A stretch of 64,000 bases of DNA. Origin: Ancylobacter oerskovii. Its GTDB lineage: Bacteria; Pseudomonadota; Alphaproteobacteria; Rhizobiales; Xanthobacteraceae. The position numbers and the translations under genes are program-made. This document shows, piece by piece, positions 2,102 through 15,466 of this stretch; positions within the stretch are counted from its first letter, which is position 1; every line of letters starts with the position of its first letter. The DNA is taken from NCBI RefSeq assembly GCF_018390555.1, contig NZ_JAHBGB010000044.1, positions 151,424 through 215,423 on the forward strand. Reading direction: 5' to 3'. The notes under the pieces were generated by a model. It was not told where the DNA came from, searched no databases, and saw only the letters and a program-made list of their open reading frames with translations.

Positions 2102-4489
2102 TCATTTGTCTCCGTAGTTCGCGCCTCCGAAAGCGATCTGGACGGCGCGATTGAGCCTTCGTTCGAGGGCGTCAGCCAGCATTTGGGCGTCGGAGTTGGT
2201 CGCGCCGCCCTTCAGGTTGATGGTGACGGGCATGTTGATCATTGGGCCGCCGCCATGACCCCGGCGGTCCTGGCCGTCGCGTCCCGGCGCGCCATCGCGG
2301 CCGTCCGCACCCGGGCGCCCCGGTGATCCAGCATTCCCGCTCAGGCGATGGTTCGGGATGATGTCGCCGTCCGTGCGCGGCCGGAATATCTCCCGGCCCC
2401 GCTCGCCCACGAGATAGGACTTTCCGGCCTCTACTGGACCGCCGTCGGCTCGGGTGCCATCGACCTTCGGCGCTGCTCCCAAGCCCGGCTGCCCATTCCA
2501 ACCGGGATCGGGCTTGTAGCCGCCCGCCGGCGGCGAGAAGCCGCTGTTGGGGCTGCCGCCGGATGAGAAGACGTTGCTGATCGCCTTCGCCGCGGTGCCG
2601 GCCAGTTCCATTAGAGAGCGAAGCCAGCCGGCCACCTTCTCGAGCCCGGCAATCAGCGAGGCGACGCCACCGCCGGCGAGCGCGCCGAGCGTCTCGCCCC
2701 ACGACCGCCATTTCGCGCCGCTCTCATCGATCGGTCCGAGGATGCCGGTGATCTTCTCCCATATCGTCGCGACGGCGGTCGCGAAGCCTTCGACGATCGG
2801 CTTCGCCGGTCCGAGCGCCGCCATGAAGGATTTGCCGAACGAGCTGAACATCTCGCTGATGCCGGCCCAGTTCTGGTGGATGAGGACGCCGGCGGCACCG
2901 ATGCCGGCGATGATGGCGCCGACACCCGAGCCGATGAAGGCGACGCGCAGCGCCGTGCCGAGCACGCGCACCGCACCGGCCGCCAGTTTCAGCGGATTGA
3001 GCAGCGCCAGCGCCGACGTGCCGACGGCAGCCAGTGCCGTGCCGATGCCGCCGATGCGCGCGGCGATCGAGAAGGCAGCCCAGGCACGGCTAGTGGCCAT
3101 CAGCGCGGCCCGGAAGGGAGCCAGAGCTGCCACCGTGACCGCCGCCGCTGCGGACAAACCGCGCATGCCGACAATCGCCGCGGTGAGCGCGCCGGCACGT
3201 AGCATGCCGGTGGCGAAGGCAGCTCCGATGGCGGCGATGCGGAAGGCCACCAGACCGGCGGTGGTGGCGACGATGGCGGTCGTCACCTTCGGATATTGGC
3301 TGGTGAGTTCCGTCAGCCGATCCAGCATCGGCGCTAGCGTGTCCATGATGGAGGTCATCGCCGGGAGCAGCGCATTGCCCAGGCTGATCGACAGGCGCTC
3401 GACGCGGTTCTGGAACAGCTGCACCGCATTCGCGGTCGTCTTGCTGCGGTTCTCATATTCCCGCGTCGCCGAGCCGGCATAGGTCGCTTCATCGCCGACG
3501 ATGCCGAGAGACTCGCGGATCAGGTTCAGGTTCGTCAGCAGCGGGCCCAGCGCCCGCGCTTCGTCGCCGAACAGCTGCGAGACGAGCGACGCCCGTCGCT
3601 CCGCCGGCAGCTTGGCGATGCGCTCCATGACGTTGAGCGTGGTGCCGACGGCATCCTTCTGCATCGCCTTGGCGACGGCCTTCGCCTCGAGCCCCAACGC
3701 CTTGTAGGCTTCCCGCTGCGACTTGGTCGCCGCCGCGCCCTTGGTGAGCGCCCGGCCCATATTGTTGAAGCTGGTGGCCGCCACCTCCGGCGCTGCGCCA
3801 GCGCTGATCATCGCCGAACCGAAGGCGGCAGCTTGTTCCGCAGCGAACCCGAACATCTTGGCCTGAGCACCGACGCGGGTCTCGAAATCGAGGATGTCGC
3901 TCGCGCTCGACGCCTGCCGGTTGCTGAGTTCGTTCATCGCGTCGGCAAGGCGGAACACCTGATCGGTGCTGTAGCCGAGCCCGGTGCGCAGCTTCGCCAT
4001 GGCATCGCCCGCCGCGCCGGCGGAGATATCGAAGGCCACGCCGATCTTGGCGGCGCCCTCGGTGAACTTGGCGAGTTCCTCACCGGCGATGCCCGCCTGG
4101 CCGGCGGCCGCCGCGATCTGGGCGAGGCCGGTCACCGCCACCGGAAGCCGGGCGGAGAGGTCCAGAAGATCCTTCTTGAAGGCCGCAATGCCGGCGTTGC
4201 CGCCAAAGTCGACGACCTTGGTGACGTCCGCCATGGCGCTCTCGAAGGCCATAGCGGATTGGATCGGCGCGGACAGGGCACGTTGCAGCGCCCATGCACT
4301 GGCGGTGGCGTCGATCATACGCCCGCGCATCTGATCGACCCGCTGATTTACCGCATCCCGGCGAGCCGCGAAGCCCTTCAGCGTTTTATCCAGCCTGCCG
4401 AGCACCCCGGAGACCGCCTTCGCGGGAGCCGAAACACCATCGATGAGTTGCAGGCGGAGAGCCGCCTCCTTCGTGCCGGCCATTGCCAT
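2102..4489 (-). CDS. Phage tail tape measure protein
   Basis: 795 residues. The N-terminal half (about 80-400) shows the TP901-type tape-measure core: repeated Ala/Gly-rich helices such as SAMAFESAMADVTKVVDFGG and the LSNRQASSASDILDFETRVG segment. Residues about 400-560 contain several hydrophobic stretches, as usual in these proteins. Near the C-terminus seven consecutive Gly-X-Y triplets (GSPGRPGADGRDGAPGRDGQ and on) form a short collagen-like tract, which is unusual here. At about 1.5 angstrom per residue it would set a tail of roughly 120 nm (inference). It follows the two tail chaperone genes on the same strand. No tail tube, distal tail or baseplate gene follows; the next gene downstream is the AbiU2-like one. 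Confidence 0.9.
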   Translation of the reverse strand: MAMAGTKEAALRLQLIDGVSAPAKAVSGVLGRLDKTLKGFAARRDAVNQRVDQMRGRMIDATASAWALQRALSAPIQSAMAFESAMADVTKVVDFGGNAGIAAFKKDLLDLSARLPVAVTGLAQIAAAAGQAGIAGEELAKFTEGAAKIGVAFDISAGAAGDAMAKLRTGLGYSTDQVFRLADAMNELSNRQASSASDILDFETRVGAQAKMFGFAAEQAAAFGSAMISAGAAPEVAATSFNNMGRALTKGAAATKSQREAYKALGLEAKAVAKAMQKDAVGTTLNVMERIAKLPAERRASLVSQLFGDEARALGPLLTNLNLIRESLGIVGDEATYAGSATREYENRSKTTANAVQLFQNRVERLSISLGNALLPAMTSIMDTLAPMLDRLTELTSQYPKVTTAIVATTAGLVAFRIAAIGAAFATGMLRAGALTAAIVGMRGLSAAAAVTVAALAPFRAALMATSRAWAAFSIAARIGGIGTALAAVGTSALALLNPLKLAAGAVRVLGTALRVAFIGSGVGAIIAGIGAAGVLIHQNWAGISEMFSSFGKSFMAALGPAKPIVEGFATAVATIWEKITGILGPIDESGAKWRSWGETLGALAGGGVASLIAGLEKVAGWLRSLMELAGTAAKAISNVFSSGGSPNSGFSPPAGGYKPDPGWNGQPGLGAAPKVDGTRADGGPVEAGKSYLVGERGREIFRPRTDGDIIPNHRLSGNAGSPGRPGADGRDGAPGRDGQDRRGHGGGPMINMPVTINLKGGATNSDAQMLADALERRLNRAVQIAFGGANYGDK

Positions 4490-4492
4490 CCC

Positions 4493-4747
4493 CTATGTAT
4501 CCACCGTGACGACTCGCCCAATCTTCAAGCCACTGACCGGGTCGATATCGCCGAACTTGAGACCGTCGGGATTGGCGACCGGCGGGGGCTCGGGCAGCGG
4601 CAGGGCGTCTGGCTCGGACTCGAAGGCAACGACGCCACCCGCGATCCGCCGCGCCTCGTCATGGAAGGCCTGGAAGTCCGACCAGCGCCGCCGCTCCATC
4701 TCGCTGAAGGGCTGATGAAGGATGGCGCCAATTTCAGCGAGCATCAT
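4493..4747 (-). CDS. Phage tail assembly chaperone, GpE-like (downstream partner)
   Basis: 84 residues. The start MMLAEIGAILHQPFSEMERR and the following DFQAFHDEARRIAGG resemble phage P2 GpE (ATTFHWPQSEIWRM...ERARIRSG). The gene sits directly between the gp41-like chaperone and the tape measure, which is the conserved position. The ATGATG start overlaps the upstream stop, so it can be made by re-initiation; in many tailed phages the same pair is joined by programmed frameshifting. The C-terminal half is proline-rich. The stop lies 3 bases before the tape measure start. Confidence 0.6.
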   Translation of the reverse strand: MMLAEIGAILHQPFSEMERRRWSDFQAFHDEARRIAGGVVAFESEPDALPLPEPPPVANPDGLKFGDIDPVSGLKIGRVVTVDT

Positions 4748-5019
4748 CCGCCGGCGCTTCCATTCTCCGGCTCGAGCGCGAAAGGGGCGAGCGCGGCACC
4801 GATCGCCTCGAAATCGCTGGTCCGCAGCTTCCGCAGGGCTTCCGCCGGCCAGCCGGTGTCCGCCGCCAGCATGGCGATGGTGGCACCCGTGCCGGTCGCC
4901 CCGGCCGCCTGGGCGCGCTCCATCGCCTCGATGGCACCGACGGTCGGCTCGTCCACCTCGATGGTCGCGTAGGTCTTTCCCTCGTGCTCAACGGGTCGCT
5001 TCAGGGTGATCGTGGTCAT
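4744..5019 (-). CDS. Phage tail assembly protein, Mu gp41-like chaperone
   Basis: 91 residues starting MTTITLKRPVEHEGKTYATI, the typical opening of the Phage_TAC_7 / Mu gp41-like family (short beta-strands followed by a helix rich in Ala; LRKLRTSDFEAIGAAL near the end). An AAGGA ribosome site lies about 8 bases before ATG 5019. It is the first gene of the minus-strand tail block and runs divergently from the head operon across 5020-5147. It is expected to coat the tape measure during tail assembly. Confidence 0.7.
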   Translation of the reverse strand: MTTITLKRPVEHEGKTYATIEVDEPTVGAIEAMERAQAAGATGTGATIAMLAADTGWPAEALRKLRTSDFEAIGAALAPFALEPENGSAGG

Positions 5020-5046
5020 GGGGGCGTCCTTCAGTCGTGAGAGGTT

Positions 5047-5130
5047 TTCAGAAAATCTGAATTAAGATTTCTAGCATTCAGAAAAACTATCACGGAGGGC
5101 GAAAGAATGTTAGCCTGAACTCGAATTCAG
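5047..5130. promoter_or_regulatory. Divergent control region with TTCAG/CTGAA dyads
   Basis: This is the short AT-rich gap between the tail block (minus) and the head operon (plus). It contains TTCAGAAAATCTGAA (5047-5061, perfect 6-bp arms), a further TTCAGA half-site (5077-5082) and CTGAACTCGAATTCAG (5115-5130, 5-bp arms). Five copies of the same half-site in 84 bases indicate an operator cluster. The HTH gene at 5148 is the obvious candidate binder (inference). Confidence 0.55.
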
Positions 5131-5147
5131 TTAAGGACCGCCCGACG

Positions 5148-5570
5148 ATGCGCCTCACCCAACGCGACCTCGCCTATGCGCTCGACATGAGCGCAATGAG
5201 CGTCAGCCGTGCCGCGACGCGGCTAGGCCGTCCCATGGGGCTGATGAGCGAGGATCTGGCGTTCGAGCTGTTGGTAGCCGGTGCACTGCGCGAGCGCGGC
5301 ATCTCGTGGCCTCAGTCCATTCGACTGGTCTGCCGGTTCTCGTCCGAGATCCGCGGCCTCGCCTCGAACATTGATGAACGCCGGCTGTGGGTCGTCTTCG
5401 TCAACGCCACCGTGAACCCTTTCACGGTCATGGCGATCAGCCCCTCGCACCTCGCGAACGTCATCAGCAGGCACCCGCTTGCGCGGACGATCGGCCTGCA
5501 CGAACCCGTTTCCGAGGCTATCGAGCAACTCGACGCCCTGAAGACACGCAAGACGTGGGCATGGGCATGA
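5148..5570 (+). CDS. Small HTH protein leading the head operon, candidate regulator
   Basis: 140 residues. Residues 1-30 (RLTQRDLAYALDMSAMSVSR then AATRLGRP) form a helix-turn-helix; the next 100 residues are not recognised. It is the first gene of the head operon, directly downstream of the TTCAG/CTGAA dyads, and its TGA overlaps the portal start as ATGA, so expression of structural genes is coupled to it. I infer autoregulation or control of the divergent tail/head promoters; a structural role is not excluded. Confidence 0.55.
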   Translation: MRLTQRDLAYALDMSAMSVSRAATRLGRPMGLMSEDLAFELLVAGALRERGISWPQSIRLVCRFSSEIRGLASNIDERRLWVVFVNATVNPFTVMAISPSHLANVISRHPLARTIGLHEPVSEAIEQLDALKTRKTWAWA

Positions 5571-6907
5571 ATATCGTTCGCGCCCTTCAATCCATCTTCA
5601 AGCGTGCTGCTCCCGTCGAGGCGGGTAGCCACGGCCCGCGCTGGGCACACGGCAAGGTCCTCCGTGCACCGGCCCAGGAAGCCACACGGCGGCGGCAGCT
5701 CGCGGCCGATCGTGCCGCGTGGCTGGCGATGAACGATGCCACTGCAGCGTCAATCATCGACCGCTGGGCGAGCAACCTCGTCAGCGACGGTCCGAGCATC
5801 GTGCCCCGCACGAATGACGATGCCCTGCGCCGGAGCGTGACCGACTCCTGGGCGCGCTGGTGGGATCGGGCTGACGCGGAAGGCCGCGACGACTTCGGCG
5901 GCATCCTGTCCCGCGCCGCGCGTGGCATTGTCGCCAGCGGCGAGGCCTTCCTCGCTGTGGAGGTCGACGACGCCGGCGAGCTTGTGCTGCGCAGCCTGGC
6001 GCCGGAACAGGTCGACGCCAGCCTCACCCGACCGGCCGGCACCGGCGGCAACATCATCGCCGGCGTCGAGATGGATCGGCGGGGCCGGCCGACTGCCTAC
6101 TGGGTTCGCCCGGCCACCGATGCGCTGCTGGCCTATATGCTCACCGCCCGACCGGTAGATGCCGGCGACGTGCTGCACGTATTCCGTCGCGACCATCCCG
6201 GCCAAGTGCGCGGCCTGTCCTGGCTTGCCCCGATCGCCACGCTGCTGTCGCAGATCGGCGAGTTGCAGGACTCCGTGCTGGCGACCGCGAACACCGCCGC
6301 GCTGTTCGGCGGCGTGCTGACCAACATCAGCGGCCAGCCAACCGATGGCGTAGCGCCTGCGGCGGGGCTGATGCCCGGGGCGCTTGTCGAGCTGCCGGCG
6401 GGAATGGACATCAAGTTCTCTTCGCCTCCCGCCCTCACCGGCGCCGACGCCACGCGCCGCGAGATGCTGCGCTCCGTCGCCGCTGGCGTCGGACTGCCGT
6501 TCGAGCTCGTCACCGGCGACCTGAGCCAGGTGAACTATTCCAGCATGCGCGCCGGCTTCGGCGAGTTCCGCAAGCGCGTCGACGTGCTGCGGCGAACCAT
6601 GATCGAGGCGCAGCTGATCCGGCCGCTGTGGCGCAAATGGCTGGCCTTCGAGGCGATGCACGGACGCATTTCCGCAAGCGTCGCCGCCGAGCTCGAGCCG
6701 CTAATCAGCTGGCCGGCCTGGCTGCCGATCGATCCGCAGAAAGAGACCGCCGCCGACATCCTTGCCCTGGATGCCGGCCTGACCTCTCGCGCCGAACTGG
6801 TGGCAAAGCGCGGTCGCGACCTCGCCGAGCTCGACGCCGAAATCGCCGCCGACCGCTTCGTGCCACGCGCGGCTCCGACCACGACTCCGGAGGAATCCGA
6901 TGCCTGA
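5567..6907 (+). CDS. Phage portal protein, lambda family
   Basis: 446 residues. It forms the dodecameric ring through which DNA enters the capsid. Lambda-type portal features are seen throughout: a basic N-terminus with DRAAWLAMNDATAASIIDRW, a central GQVRGLSWLAPI segment, the LPAGMDIKFSSP region and the C-terminal QVNYSSMRAGFGEFRKRVD followed by IRPLWRKWLAFEAMHG. ATG 5567 is chosen because it overlaps the previous TGA; the frame opens further upstream only through the HTH gene. Its stop overlaps the next start by 8 bases. Confidence 0.9.
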   Translation: MNIVRALQSIFKRAAPVEAGSHGPRWAHGKVLRAPAQEATRRRQLAADRAAWLAMNDATAASIIDRWASNLVSDGPSIVPRTNDDALRRSVTDSWARWWDRADAEGRDDFGGILSRAARGIVASGEAFLAVEVDDAGELVLRSLAPEQVDASLTRPAGTGGNIIAGVEMDRRGRPTAYWVRPATDALLAYMLTARPVDAGDVLHVFRRDHPGQVRGLSWLAPIATLLSQIGELQDSVLATANTAALFGGVLTNISGQPTDGVAPAAGLMPGALVELPAGMDIKFSSPPALTGADATRREMLRSVAAGVGLPFELVTGDLSQVNYSSMRAGFGEFRKRVDVLRRTMIEAQLIRPLWRKWLAFEAMHGRISASVAAELEPLISWPAWLPIDPQKETAADILALDAGLTSRAELVAKRGRDLAELDAEIAADRFVPRAAPTTTPEESDA

Positions 6908-8696
6908 TGAACTGCTCATCCGACGCGCGCCGCTCACGGCGTCCAGCTGGAACCCGGACGAGCGCACCCTCGAGGTGATCTTCTCCACCGGCGCCGGTGT
7001 CGAGCGCATGGACGCGCGCGGCACCTTCCTCGAGCGGCTGGACCTCGATCAGGACTGGTCCGCCTTCATCGGCGCTCCGGTGCTGAACGCGCACAAGCGT
7101 GGCGACGTCACCGACGTGCTCGGTCATGTCGTGAAGGCGTGGACCGTGAGCGCCTCCGAGGCCCGCGCCATCATTAAGCTCTCCCGCCGGCCCGACGTCG
7201 AAACCGTCGTGCAGGACGTGCGCGACGGGCACCTGCGTGGTGTCTCCGTCGGCTATGCCGTCGCGGAATGGCGGGAAGGCGCCGAGGGCGGCAAGCGCAC
7301 CAAGACGGCGACGCGATGGACGCCGGCAGAACTCTCCATCGTTCCCGTTGCCGCCGATCCCGGCGCCACCATTCGCAGTGAGAATCCCATGCCCGAAAAC
7401 ATCACGACCCCGAATCCGCAGCAGACCACCGCGCTGGCGCCCGTTGCGACCCGCGCGGCGGAAAATCAGGAAATCCGTGCCATCGCCGGCCTTGTCGGCC
7501 TCGATCAGGCGTGGATCGACGGACAGATCGACACGGGCGCCACGGCGGATGCTGCCCGTGCCGCCGCGTTCGAAGCCCTCCGCTCCCGCGCGCCGGCGCC
7601 GATCGTCACCGCGCGGGCCAGCATCGGCACCGACCATGCCGACCCGCTGGCGATCCGCTCCGCCATGGCCGACGCACTTGCACACCGCCTGGCGCCCGGC
7701 GCAGTGAAGCTGGAAGGCCGCGCCGCCGAATTCCGCGGGGTGCGGCTGCTCCATATGGTCGGCGACCTCGCCCATGCGCGCGGCGAGCGCATCAACCTGC
7801 GCGATCAGAATGCGCTCATGGAGCGCGCGGTCGGAGCCCACTCCACCAGCGATTTCCCACTGCTGCTGGCGGATGCCACCAATAAGGCACTGCTGGCGCA
7901 GTACCAGATCGCCGCACCGACCTATCGCAAATGGGCGGCGCCCCGGCAGTTCGGCGACTTCCGCGACCACAGCTTCCTGCGCGTCGGCGATTTCCCGGCC
8001 TTCAAGCCGATCGCCGAGAATGGGGAAGTGACCTACGGCACCCTCTCAGAGAACCGCGAGAAGGTCCGGGCAAAGGAGTACGGCACCGGCATCTCCGTCG
8101 GGCGCCAGTTGCTCATCAATGACGATCTGTCGGCGCTGGCCGACTTTTCATCCATGATCGCCCAGCGCGCCGCGGCCGATAAGAACCAGCTCGCCTATGC
8201 GGTTCTCTCCGCCAATGCCGTGCTGTCGGACAACGTGGCGCTGTTCCACGCCGACCATGGCAATCTCGCGGCCACGCCGGCGGCGATCACCGCCACGTCG
8301 ATTGGAGCCGCCGTAGCAGCGCTGCGTGGCCAAACCAGCCTCGACGGGCTCGCGCTGAACCTTCAGCCGGCCTTCCTCGTGGTCGGCCGGGCGAAGGAGG
8401 TGGAGGCCCGCCAGATCCTCGCCGCCATCACGCCGAGCAAGACCACCGACGTGAACGTCTGGGCGGGCTTCGCCGAGCTCATCGTGGACGCGAACATCCC
8501 CGCCAACGAGTGGTACCTCCTCGCCGCGCCGGGGGCCGCTCCGACCGTGGTGTACGGCTACGTCTCCGGAGCCGAGGGCCCGCAGGTGCGCACCGAAATC
8601 GACTTCGACACCCGTGCGGTGAAGGTCGCCGCCGGGCTGGATTTCGGCGTCGGCGCGATCGATTTCCGCGGCGCCTATAAGAACGAGGGCTTGTGA
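6900..8696 (+). CDS. Prohead protease / major capsid protein fusion
   Basis: 598 residues. Residues about 1-160 are an HK97-type prohead protease domain (LIRRAPLTASSWNPDERTLE, VLNAHKRGDVTDVLGHV with the catalytic-type His, RGVSVGYAV, ELSIVPVAADPGA). Residues about 165-598 form the major capsid protein (FRDHSFLRVGDFPAFKPIAE, the INDDLSALADF region, and a C-terminal VRTEIDFDTRAVKVAAGLDF). The protease presumably cuts itself away from the shell protein. An in-frame ATG at 7389 (Met164, MPENITTP) lies exactly at the domain boundary and could yield free capsid protein. No stop or frameshift separates the domains. Confidence 0.9.
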   Translation: MPDELLIRRAPLTASSWNPDERTLEVIFSTGAGVERMDARGTFLERLDLDQDWSAFIGAPVLNAHKRGDVTDVLGHVVKAWTVSASEARAIIKLSRRPDVETVVQDVRDGHLRGVSVGYAVAEWREGAEGGKRTKTATRWTPAELSIVPVAADPGATIRSENPMPENITTPNPQQTTALAPVATRAAENQEIRAIAGLVGLDQAWIDGQIDTGATADAARAAAFEALRSRAPAPIVTARASIGTDHADPLAIRSAMADALAHRLAPGAVKLEGRAAEFRGVRLLHMVGDLAHARGERINLRDQNALMERAVGAHSTSDFPLLLADATNKALLAQYQIAAPTYRKWAAPRQFGDFRDHSFLRVGDFPAFKPIAENGEVTYGTLSENREKVRAKEYGTGISVGRQLLINDDLSALADFSSMIAQRAAADKNQLAYAVLSANAVLSDNVALFHADHGNLAATPAAITATSIGAAVAALRGQTSLDGLALNLQPAFLVVGRAKEVEARQILAAITPSKTTDVNVWAGFAELIVDANIPANEWYLLAAPGAAPTVVYGYVSGAEGPQVRTEIDFDTRAVKVAAGLDFGVGAIDFRGAYKNEGL

Positions 8697-8697
8697 C

Positions 8698-9267
8698 ATG
8701 AAGAACTTCCGCCGCTCCGGCAATTCCAACCCCGTGCCGGCGCCCGCTGGCGGCGTGCTCTCCGGCGATGGTGTGCTTGTCGGCTCGCTGTTCGGTATCG
8801 CGGCCGCGAGCGCGGCAGAGGGCGAACTGGTCGAACTCGCCTGCGTGGGTGTCTTCGACCTAAAGAAGACCGCCGGCCAGACGTGGACCGTCGGCGCCCG
8901 AATCTATTGGGATGCTGCGGCGAAGGTGGCGACCGTCACGCCGGCCAGCAACACGGTGATCGGCCTAGCGGTCGCCCCGGCCGCGAGCTCGAGCGCCACC
9001 GGGCTCGTGCGCCTGAATGGCGTCGACGCCACCCCTGGTACGCTCGATCAGCTCCCGGGTGGAGGTGGCGAAGGAGACGTGCTGAAGATCGCCTCCGGCG
9101 TGCCGACCTGGGCGCCAGCCTTCGATGACTTCGATGGCGACGTGGAAGCGGCGGTGTCAGCCAAGACGGAAATCGCGGCGCTGGTGCCGATAGCCGATCC
9201 GTCGACGGCCACCGCCGAGGACTGCGCAACCACGCTCAATGCCATCATCGCGGCGCTGAAGGCGTAG
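8698..9267 (+). CDS. DUF2190 capsid cement protein with a head-fibre-like tail
   Basis: 189 residues. Residues about 1-115 match the DUF2190 pattern (APAGGVLSGDGVLVGSLFGI, VFDLKKTAGQTWTVGARIYW, NTVIGLAVAPA), a family of capsid decoration proteins. The rest (GGGGEGDVLKIASGVPTWAP... VPIADPSTATAEDCATTLNA) looks like the tail of phage head-fibre proteins, suggesting a decoration protein with an extra exposed module. It starts one base after the capsid stop codon. Confidence 0.75.
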   Translation: MKNFRRSGNSNPVPAPAGGVLSGDGVLVGSLFGIAAASAAEGELVELACVGVFDLKKTAGQTWTVGARIYWDAAAKVATVTPASNTVIGLAVAPAASSSATGLVRLNGVDATPGTLDQLPGGGGEGDVLKIASGVPTWAPAFDDFDGDVEAAVSAKTEIAALVPIADPSTATAEDCATTLNAIIAALKA

Positions 9268-9272
9268 TGCAC

Positions 9273-9503
9273 ATGAACCAGGGGCTGACGACCGACCTTG
9301 CCACGCTGATGATGCAGCAGAAGGAGCTGCAAGCCGCGCGAGCGTCCGGCGTCCGACGCGTCGAGTTCCGGGATCGGACGGTGGAGTACCGCTCCGATGC
9401 CGAACTCGCCGCTGCCATCCGTGACCTTGAAGCCCGCATCGCCGCAGCCCAAGGGCAACCAGCGGTGCAGGTTCACATCGTGACCAAGAACCGAGGCTGG
9501 TAG
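9273..9503 (+). CDS. Phage head-tail joining protein (gpW-type)
   Basis: 76 residues. The pattern LQAARASGVRRVEFRDRTVE followed by YRSDAELAAAIRDLEARIA is characteristic of the short gpW-like head-tail joining proteins that sit on the portal. A GTG at 9267 is an alternative start, better spaced from the GAAGG upstream. It lies between the cement protein and terminase small subunit. Confidence 0.7.
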   Translation: MNQGLTTDLATLMMQQKELQAARASGVRRVEFRDRTVEYRSDAELAAAIRDLEARIAAAQGQPAVQVHIVTKNRGW

Positions 9504-9505
9504 CC

Positions 9506-10087
9506 ATGCCGAGGCACCAGAGGGGGCATCGGACGCCTGGGTCCTCCCCCGAAACGCCCACCGCAAGGTCGAAGCATCGCGGGATCTCGCTCGCTGCAAC
9601 CTCCTCCAAGGGCCCTCCGCCGCCATTGGGAGAGCCGGTGACGGCCGATGAGCTCGCCGGGCTGCTCGGCATCGCCCCGCGCACGGTGCGGGAGTTGGCC
9701 GGCCGTGGCCTCGTGGTGAAGGCCGGACGTGGCCGGTATGACGTCGCCGCGTCGCTTTCCGGCTACTGCGCCCATCTCAGGGAACAGGCGGCCGGGCGCG
9801 CCGGCGATGCACAGGCCGGGCTTACCAATGAGCGGGCACGCCAGGCGCGGGAGGCAGCTGACAATCTCGCGCTGAGGAACGCCACCCTGCGCGGCGAGAT
9901 GGTGGCGGCGAAGGACGTCGCCGCCGAATGGTCCGGTATCCTGCGCCGGCTGCGCTCGCGGATCCTCGCCGTACCGTCCCGGGTGAACCAGCGGCTCCCG
10001 TTCCTGAAGCCGCACGACGTCGCCGAGGTCGATGCCGAGCTGCGCGAAGCGCTCACGGAGTTGGGCCATGACGGCGCATCCGCTTGA
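9506..10087 (+). CDS. Terminase small subunit, Nu1-like
   Basis: 193 residues. After a basic, Pro/Ser-rich leader, residues about 45-90 form a winged-helix DNA-binding domain (VTADELAGLLGIAPRTVREL, AGRGLVVKAGRGRYD), followed by a long helical region (LTNERARQAREAADNLALRN; VAAEWSGILRRLRSRILAVP) as in lambda gpNu1 relatives. It recognises the packaging site and recruits the large subunit. The 3' end overlaps the large subunit start by 20 bases, the expected partner order. Confidence 0.8.
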   Translation: MPRHQRGHRTPGSSPETPTARSKHRGISLAATSSKGPPPPLGEPVTADELAGLLGIAPRTVRELAGRGLVVKAGRGRYDVAASLSGYCAHLREQAAGRAGDAQAGLTNERARQAREAADNLALRNATLRGEMVAAKDVAAEWSGILRRLRSRILAVPSRVNQRLPFLKPHDVAEVDAELREALTELGHDGASA

Positions 10088-11876
10088 GCTCGTGCGCCGA
10101 ACGGCGCTGGCGAACCTCATCCCACCGCCGCGGCTGCCGCTGTCCGACTGGATCGAGCGCCACCTCATCCTGCCCGACGATGTCTCTGCGCAGCCCGGCG
10201 CGGTGCGGCTATGGCCGTTCCAGCGCGAAATAGCCGACGCGATCGGGGATCCGGCAATCGAGCGCGTGACCATCGTCAAGCCGGTGCGCGTCGGCTTCAC
10301 CACCCTGCTCACTGGTGCGCTGGCCTCCTTCGTCGCCAATGAGCCGGCGCCGGTGTTGGCACTGCTGCCGGCGGAGGCCGACTGCCGCGACTACATGGTG
10401 TCGGACATCGAACCCACCTTTGCCGCCTCGCCGGTGCTTGCTGGGTTGTTGTCGGCCGATGCGGCGGAGGGCGGCCGTAACACGCTGCTGTCGCGTCGCT
10501 TCCCCGGTGGCTCCCTGAAGGTCGTCGCCGCCAAGGCGCCGCGCAATCTGCGCCGCCACAATGCCCGGCTGCTCTTCATCGACGAAGCCGACGCCATGCT
10601 GCCCGGCCCGGAGGGCGCGCCGATCGCGCTGGCCGAAAAGCGCACGCTCTCCTTCGCCAACCGCAAGATTGTGCTGGGATCCACACCGACCGATGAGGAG
10701 ACGTCGAACGTCCTGCGCTCCTACGCGGCGAGCGACCGACGGGTATTCGAGGTACCCTGTCCGCATTGCGGGGAACGTTTCGAACTCCTCTGGGCACATA
10801 TCCAGTGGCCGAAGGACCAGCCCGAAGACGCCTATGCCGCTTGTCCGGCGAATGGCTGCATCATCGCCGAACGGGAAAAGCCGGCCATGGTCGCTGCGGG
10901 CACCTGGCGCGCCACCGCGCCGGCGGTGAAAGAGCATGCCGGCTTCCGGCTCAATGCCCTTGTCTCACTGCTGGCGAAGGCCTCGTGGGGCAAGCTCGCT
11001 GCTGAGTTCCTCACGGCCCGAGCCAGCAGCGACACGCTGCGCGTCTTCGTCAACACCATCCTCGCCGAGGGCTGGCGCGAGACGGCGGATATCATCGACG
11101 AGTCGGCGCTCGCCGGGCGCATCGAACCCTTCGGCCTGAACGCCATTCCCGCCGAGGTGCTGGTCATCACCGTCGGCGTCGACGTGCAGGATGACCGCTT
11201 GGAATGTTCCATCGTGGGCTGGACGCGGACCGACGACGCTCTGGTGCTCGGACACTCGATCGTCTGGGGATCCTCGCAGGACGATTCTACCTGGGCAGAA
11301 CTCGACGAGCTGCTGCGCACCACCTGGCCACATCCCCATGGTGGCCGGCTGAAGGTCGAGGCGGCGATCGTGGACTCCGGCGACGGCGGGATCACCGAGA
11401 AGGTGTATTCGTTCTGCTTCCCGCGCATGCCGCGCCGCATCTGGGCCGGCAAGGGCGTGGCCGGCCCCCGCCCGGCCTGGCAGATGAGCAAATCCACCGT
11501 GAAGGGCGGCCGGCTGTTCATCGTCGGCGTCGACGGCATCAAGACGACGATCTTGGATCGCCTCCGCCGCACCGGTGGCGATGAGGCGCCGCAGAGCTCC
11601 ATCCGTCTCTCCGCCGACCTCGAGCCCAGTTATTTCGAACAGCTCGCCAGCGAGCGGCGCGTGATCCGGATGCATGCCGGCCAGCCGGTCCGCCGCTTCG
11701 AGCGCATCACTGGCGCCCGCGCCGAAGCGCTCGACTGTCTCGTCTATGCCTTCTCCGCCCGGCGCGGCGTGACGATCAATTACGACAATCGCGAGGAAGA
11801 GCTTCGCGGCATGCCGACACCGCCGCGCCCATCCCGGGTGATCGAATCCAAGTGGATGAATCGAGGTCGCGCATGA
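10068..11876 (+). CDS. Terminase large subunit, GpA family
   Basis: 602 residues; the packaging ATPase and nuclease. The ATPase loop KPVRVGFTT is at 71-79 and Walker B LLFIDEAD has D172/E173. Four cysteines (C231, C234, C259, C264) form a zinc ribbon typical of GpA-type terminases. The nuclease half begins near VITVGVDVQDDRLECSIVGW and contains further acidic residues (VDSGDGG). ATG 10068 is chosen because it gives the usual start MTAHPLELVR and a short overlap with the small subunit. Confidence 0.92.
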   Translation: MTAHPLELVRRTALANLIPPPRLPLSDWIERHLILPDDVSAQPGAVRLWPFQREIADAIGDPAIERVTIVKPVRVGFTTLLTGALASFVANEPAPVLALLPAEADCRDYMVSDIEPTFAASPVLAGLLSADAAEGGRNTLLSRRFPGGSLKVVAAKAPRNLRRHNARLLFIDEADAMLPGPEGAPIALAEKRTLSFANRKIVLGSTPTDEETSNVLRSYAASDRRVFEVPCPHCGERFELLWAHIQWPKDQPEDAYAACPANGCIIAEREKPAMVAAGTWRATAPAVKEHAGFRLNALVSLLAKASWGKLAAEFLTARASSDTLRVFVNTILAEGWRETADIIDESALAGRIEPFGLNAIPAEVLVITVGVDVQDDRLECSIVGWTRTDDALVLGHSIVWGSSQDDSTWAELDELLRTTWPHPHGGRLKVEAAIVDSGDGGITEKVYSFCFPRMPRRIWAGKGVAGPRPAWQMSKSTVKGGRLFIVGVDGIKTTILDRLRRTGGDEAPQSSIRLSADLEPSYFEQLASERRVIRMHAGQPVRRFERITGARAEALDCLVYAFSARRGVTINYDNREEELRGMPTPPRPSRVIESKWMNRGRA

Positions 11877-12203
11877 CGCACTGAGATCGCCGGGGGTTCA
11901 CGCGCTTTCTCCCGGCGGGTGATGGCCGATCACCATAAGAATCGGCCCGCAACCCGCGCCTCTGTCCTTCAGGGGTTTGGGCGGGGCAGGCAGGCGTCCC
12001 CCTGCCATCCGCCGTGCGAACGGCAGCCTCCTTGGACCCGTGCCAGCCGCACGGAGCGCGGGAGGCACCTTCTCAATCGCTCAGAGAGACTCGTGGGCGG
12101 CCGCTTGCCGCCCGGGCCACCTCACCAGCAGCAGACAGCAGATCGCCGCATACGCCGCCCCCTGAGTCACCGGCAGGGCATCCCTTGAGTGGAGCACCGC
12201 ACC
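11877..12203 (+). other. Non-coding gap between terminase and neck-like gene
   Basis: I see no convincing gene in these 327 bases. Near the start is a dyad with 7-bp arms, CGCCGGG (11888-11894) and CCCGGCG (11911-11917), without a following T run, so at most a weak terminator or processing site. Short open frames here have no recognisable composition or ribosome site. Confidence 0.4.
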
Positions 12204-12620
12204 ATGTCCCTATTCGACCGCCTGGACGCCATGGCAAGCCGATCCGTCGACCACGTGATGGCGATCCCCTTCCGGCTCGATCCCATGCGGAGCAGTCCGA
12301 ACGGCCGGCCGCAGCCGGATCCCACCCGCATCACGGTGTACGGTCGGGGCGTGCTCACCGAGGGGGCCGCGGATCACGCCATCGAAGCCGGCGACCGCAG
12401 CCGGTCAGGCAATGATATGCGCACGCTCGCCACCGGCCGGACGTACGAGCTGTCGGTGGACCGGCGATATTTCGAGCACGTCGTGCCGGAACAGCGCGAG
12501 CCGCGGCAGGGCGACCAGATTGTCTTTCCCGACAACTGCGAGTTGGACCCGTTTCAAGTCATTGCGGTCCGGCGGGACGGATTGAGTCGAATGGTGCTTA
12601 GGCTGGAGCGCCTTCAATAG
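12204..12620 (+). CDS. Putative phage head-tail connector/neck protein
   Basis: 138 residues, MSLFDRLDAMASRSVDHVMA onward. The first half resembles small proteins encoded beside terminase and portal genes in alphaproteobacterial prophages (FDRLD.MASR.VD..., then NGRPQPDPTR); the second half is beta-rich with RSGNDMRTLATGRTYELSVD, where such proteins carry a conserved RSGND-like turn. I infer a head-tail completion role; a specific family was not verifiable. ATG 12204 is preferred over GTG 12189 since GGAG lies 10 bases upstream. It is the last gene with normal phage GC content before the AT-rich module. Confidence 0.5.
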   Translation: MSLFDRLDAMASRSVDHVMAIPFRLDPMRSSPNGRPQPDPTRITVYGRGVLTEGAADHAIEAGDRSRSGNDMRTLATGRTYELSVDRRYFEHVVPEQREPRQGDQIVFPDNCELDPFQVIAVRRDGLSRMVLRLERLQ

Positions 12621-12783
12621 CGTCACCGATCATCTAAGTGCGTCACGCCTTAGGCGTAAAAAAATATCCTCAAGAATTGCGACGGGCACCCGGCCCGAGC
12701 GAACGCGCTGCTCTTGTCGAGCGCGATCACATAGTATCATAACGTTGGAATTAGGTGCTGGGTCTTTGTATCGGGAGCTTGAT

Positions 12784-13908
12784 GTGCAGATTGACACCAT
12801 TAAGGTGAGCCCCTCAGATCTTCTTCTTGATCCAAATAATTATCGCTTCCATGACATTCAAGGTTATCGAGCGGTAAGTAAAAGTCGCTACGCCGAGCCC
12901 GGAGCTCAGGAGAGAGCTCTGCAGTTTTTGCGCGACACACCTGCATTCGATCTTAACGCCCTACGTGATTCAATTATATCAAATGGATTTGTCCCATTTG
13001 AACAGATTGTTGTTGAAAAATACCACGTTCCCGAAGGTGGATTTAAATATCTCGTTATTGAAGGAAACAGACGCGCAGCGGCATTGAAAACCATACTTAA
13101 AGACTACAATGAATCCACCTTGGATTTAAGTCCGGAAAAGCTCGCCACGATCGAAAATATTTCTGTTATTGAAATTACTGGATCGGAATCCGAACGACAG
13201 GGCTACCAGAAGACGCTCATGGCAATACGCCATGTTGCCGGGATTCGAGAATGGGGCCCATACCAACAAGCCCGGTTGGTTGTGGAGATGTATGATCAGG
13301 AAGAGGGCGCATTCGGTCCAGTAGCCCAGCGGATCGGCATTACTTCTCGGGAGGTCGCTCGCCGGTATCGAGCATCCAAAGCCTTGCAGCAGATGGAGAA
13401 AGATGACGAGTTCGGCGAATATGCCGCCCCCAAACTCTATTCATTTTTCCACGAAGCAGTTTCACAGCCTAAAGTAAGAGAGTGGCTGAAATTTTCAGAC
13501 ACAAGCTATATGGCCGAAGATGCGGATGCTAGGCGAGTATTCTACGAATTGCTGAGTCCACGAGAAACCGTGGATGGACGCCAAGCTCCAAAACTTCAGA
13601 ATGCAAATCAGCAGGTTCGTCAACTCAAAGACATCGTAGATAAACCCATCCCCCTCAAGATCCTTTCAGATCCCGAGCGCAGCTTTTCAGAGGCGGTACG
13701 CGCAGCGGAGGCCGAGCTTCCAACTGACGAAACCGGCGCCCTCGAGCACGCATTGGGCACAGCACTCCAAGCCCTGCGGCAGCCGAGCATCGATGCCTGG
13801 CTCAGCCCGGATACACGAGCAGTACAGATTTGGGAGGATTTAGTTAGCCTCGTGGACAAGGTTCGGCCGCTAATATCCAAGAAAAATGACACCCAAATTA
13901 ATAGTTAA
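12784..13908 (+). CDS. ParB/Srx-fold protein with HTH, first gene of a candidate defence module
   Basis: 374 residues. Residues about 1-110 match the ParB-like fold: an opening IDTIKVSPSDLLLDPNNYRF and the key motif EGNRRAAALK (E93, G94, N95, R96, R97), equivalent to the GERR nucleotide/phosphate-binding box of ParB. Residues about 155-200 look like the following helix-turn-helix (PVAQRIGITSREVARRYRAS). The C-terminal 170 residues are not recognised. GTG 12784 is chosen because GGGAG lies at 12773-12777; the frame opens upstream to TTG 12745. The composition is clearly lower in GC than the phage and host genes. It overlaps the Mrr-like nuclease gene by 23 bases. A nucleotide-dependent sensor or DNA-loading role is inference. 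Confidence 0.7.
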   Translation: MQIDTIKVSPSDLLLDPNNYRFHDIQGYRAVSKSRYAEPGAQERALQFLRDTPAFDLNALRDSIISNGFVPFEQIVVEKYHVPEGGFKYLVIEGNRRAAALKTILKDYNESTLDLSPEKLATIENISVIEITGSESERQGYQKTLMAIRHVAGIREWGPYQQARLVVEMYDQEEGAFGPVAQRIGITSREVARRYRASKALQQMEKDDEFGEYAAPKLYSFFHEAVSQPKVREWLKFSDTSYMAEDADARRVFYELLSPRETVDGRQAPKLQNANQQVRQLKDIVDKPIPLKILSDPERSFSEAVRAAEAELPTDETGALEHALGTALQALRQPSIDAWLSPDTRAVQIWEDLVSLVDKVRPLISKKNDTQINS

Positions 13909-14761
13909 GCTTTTAGAAGAGACAATCGGAATTGATGGATCGCCAAAGAAAGTAATTTTGGCGATCGAAGAAGCCCTTTTTCTGAAGAAAGGACTCACTC
14001 GCATCGCCTCTGCTGAACTGGCAGAAAGACTTGAGCAGGCTACGATTGCATATATCGCTGAGAAAGCCGCCGCTTCTGAAAAAGATGGCGTACTTTTTCA
14101 CCTTCAATTACTCGGGTCCTCTCGGGATTATGTGGCAGGCTTTTCGCATCCACTCGCCACCGAAAGTCCAGGAAGCGCCCTTGCACGGCAACAGAGGCGC
14201 CACGTTGCCGATGTGCGCGCAGCAATTCAGTCCCTGTCATTCAGCCATTTTGAGAGATTCTGCGCACGCATTCTCATTCTCATGGGCGCCTCTGAGGCCA
14301 AAATAACTCCTCACTCTGGAGATCAGGGCATAGATTTCCATGGAACATTGACGCTTGGTCAATTCAATTCACTACCTCAGCCATTCATGCAAATGGCGCA
14401 CGACATTAGATTCTCCTTTCTTGGGCAAGCAAAACACTACCCAAATAGCGCACTTAGCACCAGCGTCGTACGGGAGTTAATTGGAGCAGTAAGCTTAGCA
14501 AGAACAAAAACATTCTCTTCCAGATCTTTTGATGGATTGGAAAGCGCAAATATACGACCATTTTCACCGATCGTTACTATATTGTTCACTACCGGAACAT
14601 TAAGTCGAGGCGCGCGCGAACTTTCCAGTTCCGCCGGAATAATATCACGATCCGGAGAGCAATTGGCTGTATTTCTAGTTGATCACAGTATAGGAGTTTC
14701 AATAAACGACGATGAACTGAAATTTGACAAAGACGCATTTGAATATTGGCTTCTTGGGTAG
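13886..14761 (+). CDS. Mrr-like PD-(D/E)XK nuclease, second gene of the candidate defence module
   Basis: 291 residues. Residues about 113-185 match the Mrr_cat restriction endonuclease pattern: SFSHFERFCARILILMGASE, then GDQGIDF with D146 and D150, then GQAKHY with Q181 and K183 (D...QxK catalytic arrangement). The N-terminal 100 residues are helical and unrecognised; the C-terminal 90 residues may form the rest of the fold. The gene shares the low GC of its partner (27 G/C in the 60 bases 14401-14460) and begins inside it, so both are made together. DNA cleavage is inferred from the motif; the target (modified DNA, phage DNA) is unknown. Confidence 0.75.
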   Translation: MTPKLIVKLLEETIGIDGSPKKVILAIEEALFLKKGLTRIASAELAERLEQATIAYIAEKAAASEKDGVLFHLQLLGSSRDYVAGFSHPLATESPGSALARQQRRHVADVRAAIQSLSFSHFERFCARILILMGASEAKITPHSGDQGIDFHGTLTLGQFNSLPQPFMQMAHDIRFSFLGQAKHYPNSALSTSVVRELIGAVSLARTKTFSSRSFDGLESANIRPFSPIVTILFTTGTLSRGARELSSSAGIISRSGEQLAVFLVDHSIGVSINDDELKFDKDAFEYWLLG

Positions 14762-14802: not shown

Positions 14803-15123
14803 TTAATCCTTATTTTTGACACCAGCCATCAACCTGCGCCGCCGCATGACGGAGGCCAGGTCGGGCTCTCGCGCTTCGGAATCGCTGATCCCGCTCGCCA
14901 ACAACCCGCTCCTTCCACTCGAGATGGTGCTCTGTCGCTCCAACGCCTCGATCGCCTCGATCGGAATTCGCAGCAGTTTTCCACCCAGGCGGAAAGCCCC
15001 GGGCATTTTGCCGTCTGCTATCATCCGCCGCACGAACGAGGGCGAGCACTTCCACCGTTCGGCGACCTCCTCCGGCGTGTAGACGAAGCTGACGAATTCT
15101 TCCTTGTCCGGGCCGGCGGTCAT
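14803..15123 (-). CDS. Excisionase-like helix-turn-helix protein
   Basis: 106 residues. Residues about 14-55 (VYTPEEVAERWKCSPSFVRR, MIADGKMPGAFRLGGKLLRI) are the MerR/excisionase HTH_17 pattern; the basic C-terminal tail ends MRRRRLMAGVKNKD. ATG 15123 has an excellent GGAGGTG site just upstream. It reads away from the attachment region and sits between the accessory genes and the tRNA, the usual place for an AlpA/Xis type gene that bends DNA for excision. No integrase is next to it in this window. Confidence 0.7.
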   Translation of the reverse strand: MTAGPDKEEFVSFVYTPEEVAERWKCSPSFVRRMIADGKMPGAFRLGGKLLRIPIEAIEALERQSTISSGRSGLLASGISDSEAREPDLASVMRRRRLMAGVKNKD

Positions 15124-15389
15124 TGGCACCTCCATCTCCCGAGCATGATCCACGCCTGCCGGCATGCGGGCAAGGGCAGCAGCAGATTCCTCGTGCCCCT
15201 GTAGCGTCCCGCCTCTTCACACCCTAGCTCGCCGGCCGGACGTGTCGCATTTCATGTCGCGTGGAGCCGCCGTACAATACTGAAAACCGTTGGAAATTAA
15301 GGAAAGTGGTTTGCGGCATGTCGCGACATAAAAATCGTCTGATCTAGCGCGTGCTGCATCCTAAGTTATTGAAATAACTTAGGAAAATT
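15124..15389. other. Attachment-flanking region with integrase/Xis-type sites
   Basis: 266 non-coding bases between the excisionase-like gene and the tRNA 3' end. TGTCGC recurs (near 15242, 15254 and 15320), the last as the perfect 12-base palindrome ATGTCGCGACAT (15318-15329). A second perfect dyad lies at 15360-15383. Such clustered short repeats are what arm sites for integrase and excisionase look like; this role is inference. Confidence 0.45.
15360..15383. repeat. Perfect 11-bp inverted repeat next to the tRNA 3' end
   Basis: CCTAAGTTATT (15360-15370), two bases GA, then AATAACTTAGG (15373-15383): a perfect AT-rich dyad 6 bases from the tRNA CCA end. It is not followed by a T run on the tRNA strand, so an intrinsic terminator is doubtful. 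It could be a core or arm site of site-specific recombination. Confidence 0.6.
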
Positions 15390-15466
15390 TGGTAGCGGAG
15401 GAGGGACTTGAACCCCCGACCCCAGGATTATGATTCCCGTGCTCTAACCAGCTGAGCTACTCCGCC
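15390..15466 (-). tRNA. tRNA-Met (CAU), elongator type
   Basis: A full cloverleaf reads on the minus strand from GGCGGAGTAGCTCAG to a templated CCA (15390-15392). The acceptor GGCGGAG pairs with CTCCGCT, with a G-U closing pair. The anticodon loop is ATCATAA with anticodon CAT, the anticodon stem is CGGGA/TCCTG with one G-U pair, and the T arm is GGGGG TTCAAGT CCCTC. It lacks the unpaired C1-A72 and GGG/CCC anticodon stem of initiator tRNA. It serves as the likely integration site of the element on its 3' side. Confidence 0.93.

Follow-up and report, generated by a model that had tools for sequence, protein, structure and literature searches.

What do a ParB-like protein and a restriction-type nuclease, encoded by two overlapping genes at one end of an integrated phage-like element, do together? 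The question is raised by a locus of Ancylobacter oerskovii (Alphaproteobacteria; Rhizobiales; Xanthobacteraceae) that lies in a stretch of 64,000 nucleotides of contig NZ_JAHBGB010000044.1, positions 151,424 to 215,423 (assembly GCF_018390555.1). This whole stretch is called the window, and coordinates refer to it unless stated otherwise. Comparisons of the two proteins with relatives and with solved structures suggest that the pair is probably an unnamed defence module of restriction type with two components, which the element carries as cargo. An earlier note on this DNA had proposed such a role for a ParB-fold protein and an Mrr-like nuclease. The pair contains the following features.

12784-13908, + strand: gene 1, ParB/KorB/Noc-like protein, 374 aa, GTG start
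13060-13089, + strand: ParB P-motif-like box E-G-N-R-R-A-A-A-L-K, residues 93-102
13258-13398, + strand: helical, helix-turn-helix (HTH)-like DNA-binding region, approximately residues 159-205 (secondary structure of the model; aligns with the DNA-binding domains of KorB, SopB and ParB)
13813-13902, + strand: long C-terminal helix of the gene 1 model, residues 344-373
13886-13908, + strand: overlap of the two genes, 23 nt, in different frames
13886-14761, + strand: gene 2, predicted Mrr_cat PD-(D/E)XK nuclease, 291 aa, with an MspJI-like domain and a mostly helical N-terminal part (approximately residues 1-115)
14321-14335, + strand: catalytic acids D146 to D150 (DQGID); D150 in 14/14 aligned pairs, D146 in 13/14 (E in one)
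14426-14434, + strand: catalytic Q181-A-K183; Q and K in 14/14 aligned pairs

The coordinates of the two open reading frames (ORFs), which share 23 nt, agree with the earlier note, as do the positions of EGNRRAAALK, D146, D150 and Q181-A-K183 in the translations. The coupling of the two genes that the note had described was likewise borne out.

Gene 1, a predicted ParB-like protein

The GTG start of gene 1 at 12784 matches the longest-ORF starts in L019 and L020, two of the loci with the closest homologues; a longer start, TTG at 12745, is possible. The protein was assigned to ParB by profile and fold, since Pfam gave no family at expectation values (E) up to 5; NCBIfam and a single-sequence search of the PDB also gave no match. 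When a profile of 51 gene 1 relatives was compared with solved structures, ParB, Noc and Spo0J were matched, with a best E of 1.6e-4. The AlphaFold2 model (predicted local distance difference test, pLDDT, 94.5) was closest in fold to KorB (Z 10.6 over 199 residues, root-mean-square deviation (rmsd) 4.3), then to Noc (Z 9.9) and ParB-CDP (Z 9.8 over 94 residues). V91, E93, G94, N95, R96, R97, H150 and W157 are among the residues that were invariant over the 51 sequences. By these sequence and model comparisons, gene 1 is predicted to have the ParB-CTPase fold: a ParB N-domain with a GxRR-type P motif, followed by an HTH region.

The earlier note had described a ParB-type box joined to an HTH and an unknown C-terminus of 170 residues. 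The box and the HTH were borne out; the description of the C-terminus holds only in part, since the best fold matches extend to residue 288 (Noc) or 315 (KorB) and leave only ∼60-85 residues over. The long C-terminal helix presumably occupies the place of the ParB dimerisation helix. The note had mentioned DUF262/GmrS-like proteins as ParB-fold proteins of restriction. By Pfam, gene 1 is not of this kind; the nearest proteins were KorB, Noc, ParB and the ParB arm of the PADLOC candidate PDC-M38. The PADLOC match was to PDC-M38A (1.3e-50, positions 10-317 of 715), and the N-terminus of gene 1 also matched PD-Lambda-5_A (1.5e-11). Among the PHROG families, gene 1 matched PHROG 3694, of unknown function (6.7e-19).

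Gene 1 was found in none of the 60 relatives searched, 29 of them of the same genus. Of 385 genomes of the class, 6 gave a match; one is its own genome, and five held distant relatives with 28-43% identity over parts of the protein. With gene 1, tblastn found only distant relatives, in 2 plasmid and 10 phage records. Single-protein scans of viral contigs found no relative.

Gene 2, a predicted Mrr-type nuclease

Gene 2 matched the Mrr_cat family of Pfam (PF04471) with an E of 1.1e-8 and 35.6 bits, against a cut-off of 21, and the same family was found above cut-off in all five of the close gene 2 relatives scanned. The closest solved fold to the nuclease domain of the model (pLDDT 87.5) was MspJI (Z 13.2 over 148 residues, rmsd 2.8); AspBHI (Z 12.7) came next, then AF1548 and FokI. 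A profile of 14 gene 2 relatives matched MspJI alone among solved structures (2.3e-6). Across the 14 aligned pairs F122, E123, G148, D150, Q181 and K183 were all kept. Searched as single sequences, gene 2 gave only four weak PDB matches, all to ribosomal protein L6, and no tblastn match among plasmids and phages.

A passage of PMC3874153 describes MspJI as having a C-terminal Mrr-cat domain with a (D/E)..(D/E/Q)XK motif and an SRA-like N-terminal domain. In the gene 2 model, residues 1-115 form helices and two short strands, not a beta-sheet crescent, and no SRA-like reader of 5-methylcytosine was apparent in the N-terminus, as judged by predicted secondary structure only. The sequence and model evidence thus points to an Mrr-type PD-(D/E)XK nuclease with intact catalytic residues and an MspJI-like catalytic domain; the Mrr_cat match and the nearest fold both bear out the identification made in the earlier note.

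Conservation of the pair

Relatives were sought in genomes, where the best 80 of 460 were kept, and in viral sequences, where 80 of 91 were kept. A phmmer search with gene 2 over ORFs of at least 60 aa in loci L008-L177 gave 13 matches, each directly downstream of gene 1, and these 13 loci (L018-L030) are the ones closest to the window in gene 1. Another pair (L202) was reached through the PDC-M38A model. A search starting from gene 2 gave two viral contigs (L210 and L211), both with gene 1 directly upstream. Gene order and adjacency were therefore kept in 17 of 17 loci with a close gene 2 relative, the window included; in L020, gene 1 is split into two ORFs. Among named organisms the pair spans seven phyla: Pseudomonadota, Myxococcota, Acidobacteriota, Actinomycetota, Chloroflexota, Bacteroidota and Balneolota. 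The earlier note had treated the two genes as one module, and neither rare conservation of the pair nor unrelated neighbours were seen in these loci.

All 14 aligned pairs were without variation at E93-R97 and H150 in gene 1 and at F122, E123, D150, Q181 and K183 in gene 2. Distances between gene 1 proteins and between gene 2 proteins were correlated (r 0.89, n=14), and none of 10000 permutations gave a value as high; 14 of the 17 pairs were used, without L020 (split gene 1), L210 and L211. The correlation shows co-inheritance of the two proteins, not contact between them.

Two of these loci have a defence context. The neighbours of L025 are a DNA methylase, AbiEi/AbiEii genes and a gene with an endonuclease domain, and in the vicinity of L028 there are a BsuBI/PstI nuclease and a C5 methylase. 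In L211, the pair (2212-4861) comes directly after a gene that by eye resembles a CI-type repressor, where expression in the lysogen would be expected.

Apparent exchange of partners in the wider gene 1 family

The wider gene 1 family was examined in 132 loci, which are what was left of a top-ranked sample of 170 once 38 redundant loci had been dropped at 85% identity. Gene 1 was followed directly by a different partner of ∼330 aa in 103 loci (clade II), by a partner of the window type in 13 (clade I), and by neither in 16, which by eye include contig ends, PD-lambda-5-like genes and tandem ParB genes. A partner of either family thus followed gene 1 in 116 of 132 loci, and in 114 of these, with longest-ORF starts, it overlapped gene 1 or started no more than 20 nt past its end.

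A profile alignment of the two partner families matches the D and Q motifs of one to those of the other (hhalign E 1.8e-4, probability 48.5%). Three of the 103 partners in clade II were no longer than 250 aa and had been dropped from the motif count; in the other 100, one D and the Q were invariant and the lysine of QxK was present in only 21. A lysine ten residues further on was found in 80 of 100 (for example in the gene 2 of L013, 6080-7012); the catalytic residue may have migrated to this position, unless the site is inactive. Ten second-gene proteins from distant gene 1 loci were compared with the PADLOC models without a match at E up to 0.1, and the three of them scanned with Pfam matched no relevant family. 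We therefore call the clade II partners putative nucleases only, a name for which the motif and the profile alignment are the sole grounds.

The two clades differ markedly in their methyltransferases. We counted three protein clusters (D12 adenine, C5 cytosine and N4/N6), with ten or fewer members checked with Pfam. A gene of these clusters was no more than four genes away in 92 of the 103 loci of clade II, but in only 1 of the 13 of clade I (Fisher p 2.3e-9, kinship ignored). Clade II has 99 such genes, of which 65 immediately follow the pair and 18 immediately precede gene 1. Other DNA methylases, outside the counted clusters, are near the pair in the clade I loci L025 and L027, and a gene ∼2.9 kb past the pair in L210, which by eye resembles a D12 methylase, was left out of the count. 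In phages Wphi and 12474III, a clade II pair and a C5 methyltransferase lie close to replication gene A, and in 12474III behind the portal gene as well; this position is a P2 hotspot of defence genes according to a passage of PMC9519451.

Four PDC-M38A proteins matched the 715-position profile almost end to end. L198, the only PDC-M38A locus scanned with Pfam and PADLOC, encodes a ParB arm joined to an AAA_21/AAA_15 ATPase that also matches the AriA and AbiLi models, followed by PDC-M38B (∼290 aa), in which the one Pfam match, to an OLD-like TOPRIM, is weak (0.053). A maximum-likelihood tree was made of 55 ParB arms: 16 of the 17 from clade I (not L020), 30 chosen from clade II, four from PDC-M38A and five that are PD-lambda-5-like. 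The PDC-M38A arms and clade I formed one group (100/100), and the four PDC-M38A arms were nested inside clade I, beside L027 and L030 (100/99). Because of this nesting, the same ParB arm appears, on the sequence tree, to have swapped partners at least once. The five PD-lambda-5-like arms had long branches and formed a separate group (98/97); a PADLOC check covered L012, L042 and L097, and L044 and L072 were included only because they cluster with these three. By their PADLOC families, L012 and L097 each have a long ParB-like chain whose partner is a D12 methyltransferase.

Other arrangements of the family were also seen. In L013, L046, L053, L059 and L081 the pair comes after a Z1-domain gene, often with a DUF4420-type PD-(D/E)XK gene (L046 and L053 were checked with Pfam), which suggests a larger operonic system. 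L034 (4851-8367) and L096 (4829-8289) each have three consecutive gene 1-like ParB genes without the usual partner. In L016, a fecal phage contig, two different pairs of gene 1 and partner face each other (4785-6885 and 7431-9624).

Comparison with known systems

PADLOC, NCBIfam and Pfam hold no model for the whole pair, and no description of it was found in the open-access literature among the matches listed, which agrees with the earlier note, where it was not recognised as a named system. Papers matched there for ParB together with Mrr and phage defence dealt with HEPN domains and SMC-like Wadjet systems, and none was found on PDC-M38. The word ‘Mrr’ is absent from the main text of a 2025 survey of the ParB-CTPase fold (PMC12704722).

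Two PADLOC systems share the ParB region. Gene 1 matches the ParB arm of PDC-M38, whose PDC-M38A arms nest in clade I; however, the window lacks the ATPase half and has a PD-(D/E)XK nuclease as the partner, with no match between gene 2 and M38B. Since the ParB arm alone matches, membership of PDC-M38 was rejected. PD-lambda-5, a system of Escherichia coli prophages, has a homologous N-terminal ParB region and the same two-gene layout, but its A chain is longer, with another C-terminus, and its partner is a D12 methyltransferase, where the window has a separate nuclease. Membership was rejected here too, as the match is N-terminal only and the whole genome has no D12 methylase. PD-lambda-5 is reported to give broad defence, and is called a compacted restriction-modification plus abortive system, in a passage of PMC9519451.

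The gp98/gp96 genes of coliphage Wphi, with Mth, have the gene order of the window, a homologous gene 1 and a partner family with a distantly similar motif. They differ in that the Wphi gene 2 belongs to the other family, in which few members keep the QxK lysine, and in having a linked methyltransferase. No linked DNA methyltransferase, by which a restriction-modification system would be recognised, was identified beside the window pair. MspJI and AspBHI share the catalytic domain fold of gene 2, but MspJI has its SRA-like reader in its own chain (as described in part of PMC3874153), whereas the window has a separate ParB-like protein.

The type IV enzyme GmrSD also combines a ParB/Srx fold with a nuclease. 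Its GmrS is a DUF262 protein with a DGQHR-like motif, however, and its GmrD an HNH nuclease, as set out in a section of PMC4619093; membership was rejected, with both DUF262 and DUF1524/HNH unmatched by the window proteins at E up to 5. Restriction by a ParB/Srx fold together with a nuclease is thus already known from GmrSD; for the combination of this type of ParB, this nuclease and this change of partners, no precedent was found. A ParABS partition system was rejected as well: the nearest match to CbiA (PF01656, ParA-type) is >70 kb away on the contig, and gene 1 lacks the ParA-binding motif, given as (L/F/I)G(K/R)G(L/F/I) in an excerpt of PMC12704722.

Proposed function and alternatives

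The case for defence is built on the conservation of the pair, on the nuclease and ParB assignments, and on relatives that lie in a phage defence hotspot or beside restriction-modification genes and methyltransferases. It also draws on the same ParB family being an arm of PADLOC PD-Lambda-5_A and PDC-M38A; defence by PD-lambda-5 has been shown (PMC9519451). In the mechanism that we propose, gene 1 would recognise sites or some feature on incoming DNA through its HTH region, and would then close, via the GNRR box, as a clamp dependent on a nucleoside triphosphate (NTP), be it cytidine triphosphate or another. The clamped protein would recruit or activate gene 2, which would cut the incoming DNA. 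Self DNA would be marked, in clade II, by the methyltransferase linked to the pair. In clade I another rule would protect the host: the site may be absent, modified DNA may be required, or activation may occur only during infection.

Several observations weigh against this proposal. Co-inheritance is expected for any two linked genes. In the search of 385 genomes of the class, 14 of the 15 genomes matched by the gene 2 profile hold other Mrr-like proteins, without a gene 1 match in the short loci, so the nuclease domain is common and often unpaired. Most clade I loci are not, by eye, in recognisable defence islands. Beside the window pair no methyltransferase was identified; the C5 and N4/N6 methylase matches of the genome are on other contigs, with none on that of the pair, and D12 methylases are missing from the whole genome. 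With no linked methyltransferase, and with the counted kinds in only one clade I locus, the self-protection of the host is left unexplained.

The kinship with MspJI makes a requirement for modified DNA a serious rival, although we think it unlikely. The pair would then be a type IV-like restriction system, in which one of the two proteins, the ParB-like one or the nuclease, would recognise modified phage DNA, and host DNA would be spared for lack of the mark. MspJI and AspBHI, the closest folds to the nuclease domain, are both modification-dependent (PMC3874153, in the passage cited above), the counted methyltransferases are rare in clade I (1/13), and GmrSD provides a precedent for a type IV enzyme made of a ParB/Srx fold and a nuclease (PMC4619093, same section). 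Against this, residues 1-115 of gene 2 are mostly helical in the model, with no apparent SRA-like reader, and the host genome has C5 and N4/N6 methyltransferase matches of its own. Less likely again is an abortive or toxin-antitoxin-like unit, in which gene 1 silences the nuclease, and may repress the operon, until infection, when the nuclease also cuts host DNA. The overlap of the two genes would fit, as would the best fold match of gene 1, KorB, being a transcriptional repressor; PDC-M38 joins the same ParB arm to an AriA-like ATPase, and PARIS (ariAB) is described as abortive in a portion of PMC9122126. The methyltransferases of clade II, however, point to the marking of DNA and not to toxin control, and a comparison of the upstream DNA of gene 1 with that of its four closest relatives showed no conserved operator or repeat.

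We consider it improbable that the pair serves the element itself, in partition, packaging or the degradation of host DNA. The pair does adjoin the terminase genes in the window, and in the viral contig L211 it follows the repressor-like gene; but across the seven phyla it is found in varied contexts, mostly not phage-looking by eye, the nearest ParA-type (CbiA) match is distant on the contig, and the GC content of the pair is unlike that of its flanks. That the two genes are unrelated neighbours overlapping by chance has a negligible probability and is refuted by the order and adjacency kept in 17/17 loci.

ParB clamps are known from chromosome segregation. Beyond the defence function proposed for the window pair, a wider view, which we hold tentatively and with the balance tipped slightly against it, is that NTP-gated clamps of the ParB type are a general loading module of prokaryotic immunity with varied partners, of which the window pair would be a member without a linked methyltransferase. 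The partners would be an MspJI-type nuclease, a putative nuclease with a methyltransferase (Wphi), an AriA-like ATPase with a small partner (PDC-M38) and, more distantly, PD-lambda-5; in the pair of the window, the sliding clamp would mark foreign DNA for cutting. If true, the ParB arm retained while the partner changes would be a directly testable case of clamp-loaded immunity, and the PADLOC candidate PDC-M38 and the experimentally found PD-lambda-5 would be joined to one recognition module. It would also raise the question of how the branch without a linked methyltransferase spares its host.

The element and its other genes

The pair is on the + strand of a phage-like element of ∼18.1 kb, between the terminase genes and the attachment end at a tRNA gene. 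The neighbouring features are as follows.

9506-11876, + strand: terminase small and large subunits (PHROG 57 and 15), packaging genes adjoining the pair
14803-15165, − strand: excisionase/HTH-like gene (PHROG 10045, 66 and 1840), between the pair and the attachment site
15390-15434, no strand: right attachment repeat, 45 bp, the 3′ end of tRNA-Met; left copy at window coordinate -2696
15390-15466, − strand: tRNA-Met (cat), integration target

The 45 bp of the tRNA-Met 3′ end are repeated ∼18.1 kb leftward on the same contig, at the coordinate listed, where the copy adjoins a 415-aa ORF that by eye resembles a tyrosine recombinase. The genes 5′ of the pair matched PHROG families for portal, head protease/major head, decoration, adaptor and terminase. 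Given the 45-bp repeats and these phage-type neighbours, we regard the element as small, integrated and phage-like, with the pair as cargo at one of its ends. The accessory slot between packaging genes and attachment end, which the earlier note had proposed, is confirmed by the terminase matches and the tRNA-Met repeat, and so is the AT-richness of the pair, whose GC content is 48.2% compared with 69.5% in 7.4 kb of flanks.

Promoter and terminator scans gave nothing above chance, and the 143-aa ORF between terminase and pair (12189-12620, + strand) had no PHROG or Pfam match. Between the repeats, the element extends from window coordinate -2696 to 15434 (contig C39, 148727-166857) and contains head, portal, terminase and tape-measure genes; no tail genes besides tape-measure were recognised among the ten element proteins scanned. 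It is either the remnant of a prophage or satellite-like. The element has a second accessory gene that is AT-rich (1312-2043, − strand), which matched HEPN_AbiU2 (PF18734, 3.2e-7, above cut-off); the element therefore carries another candidate defence gene.

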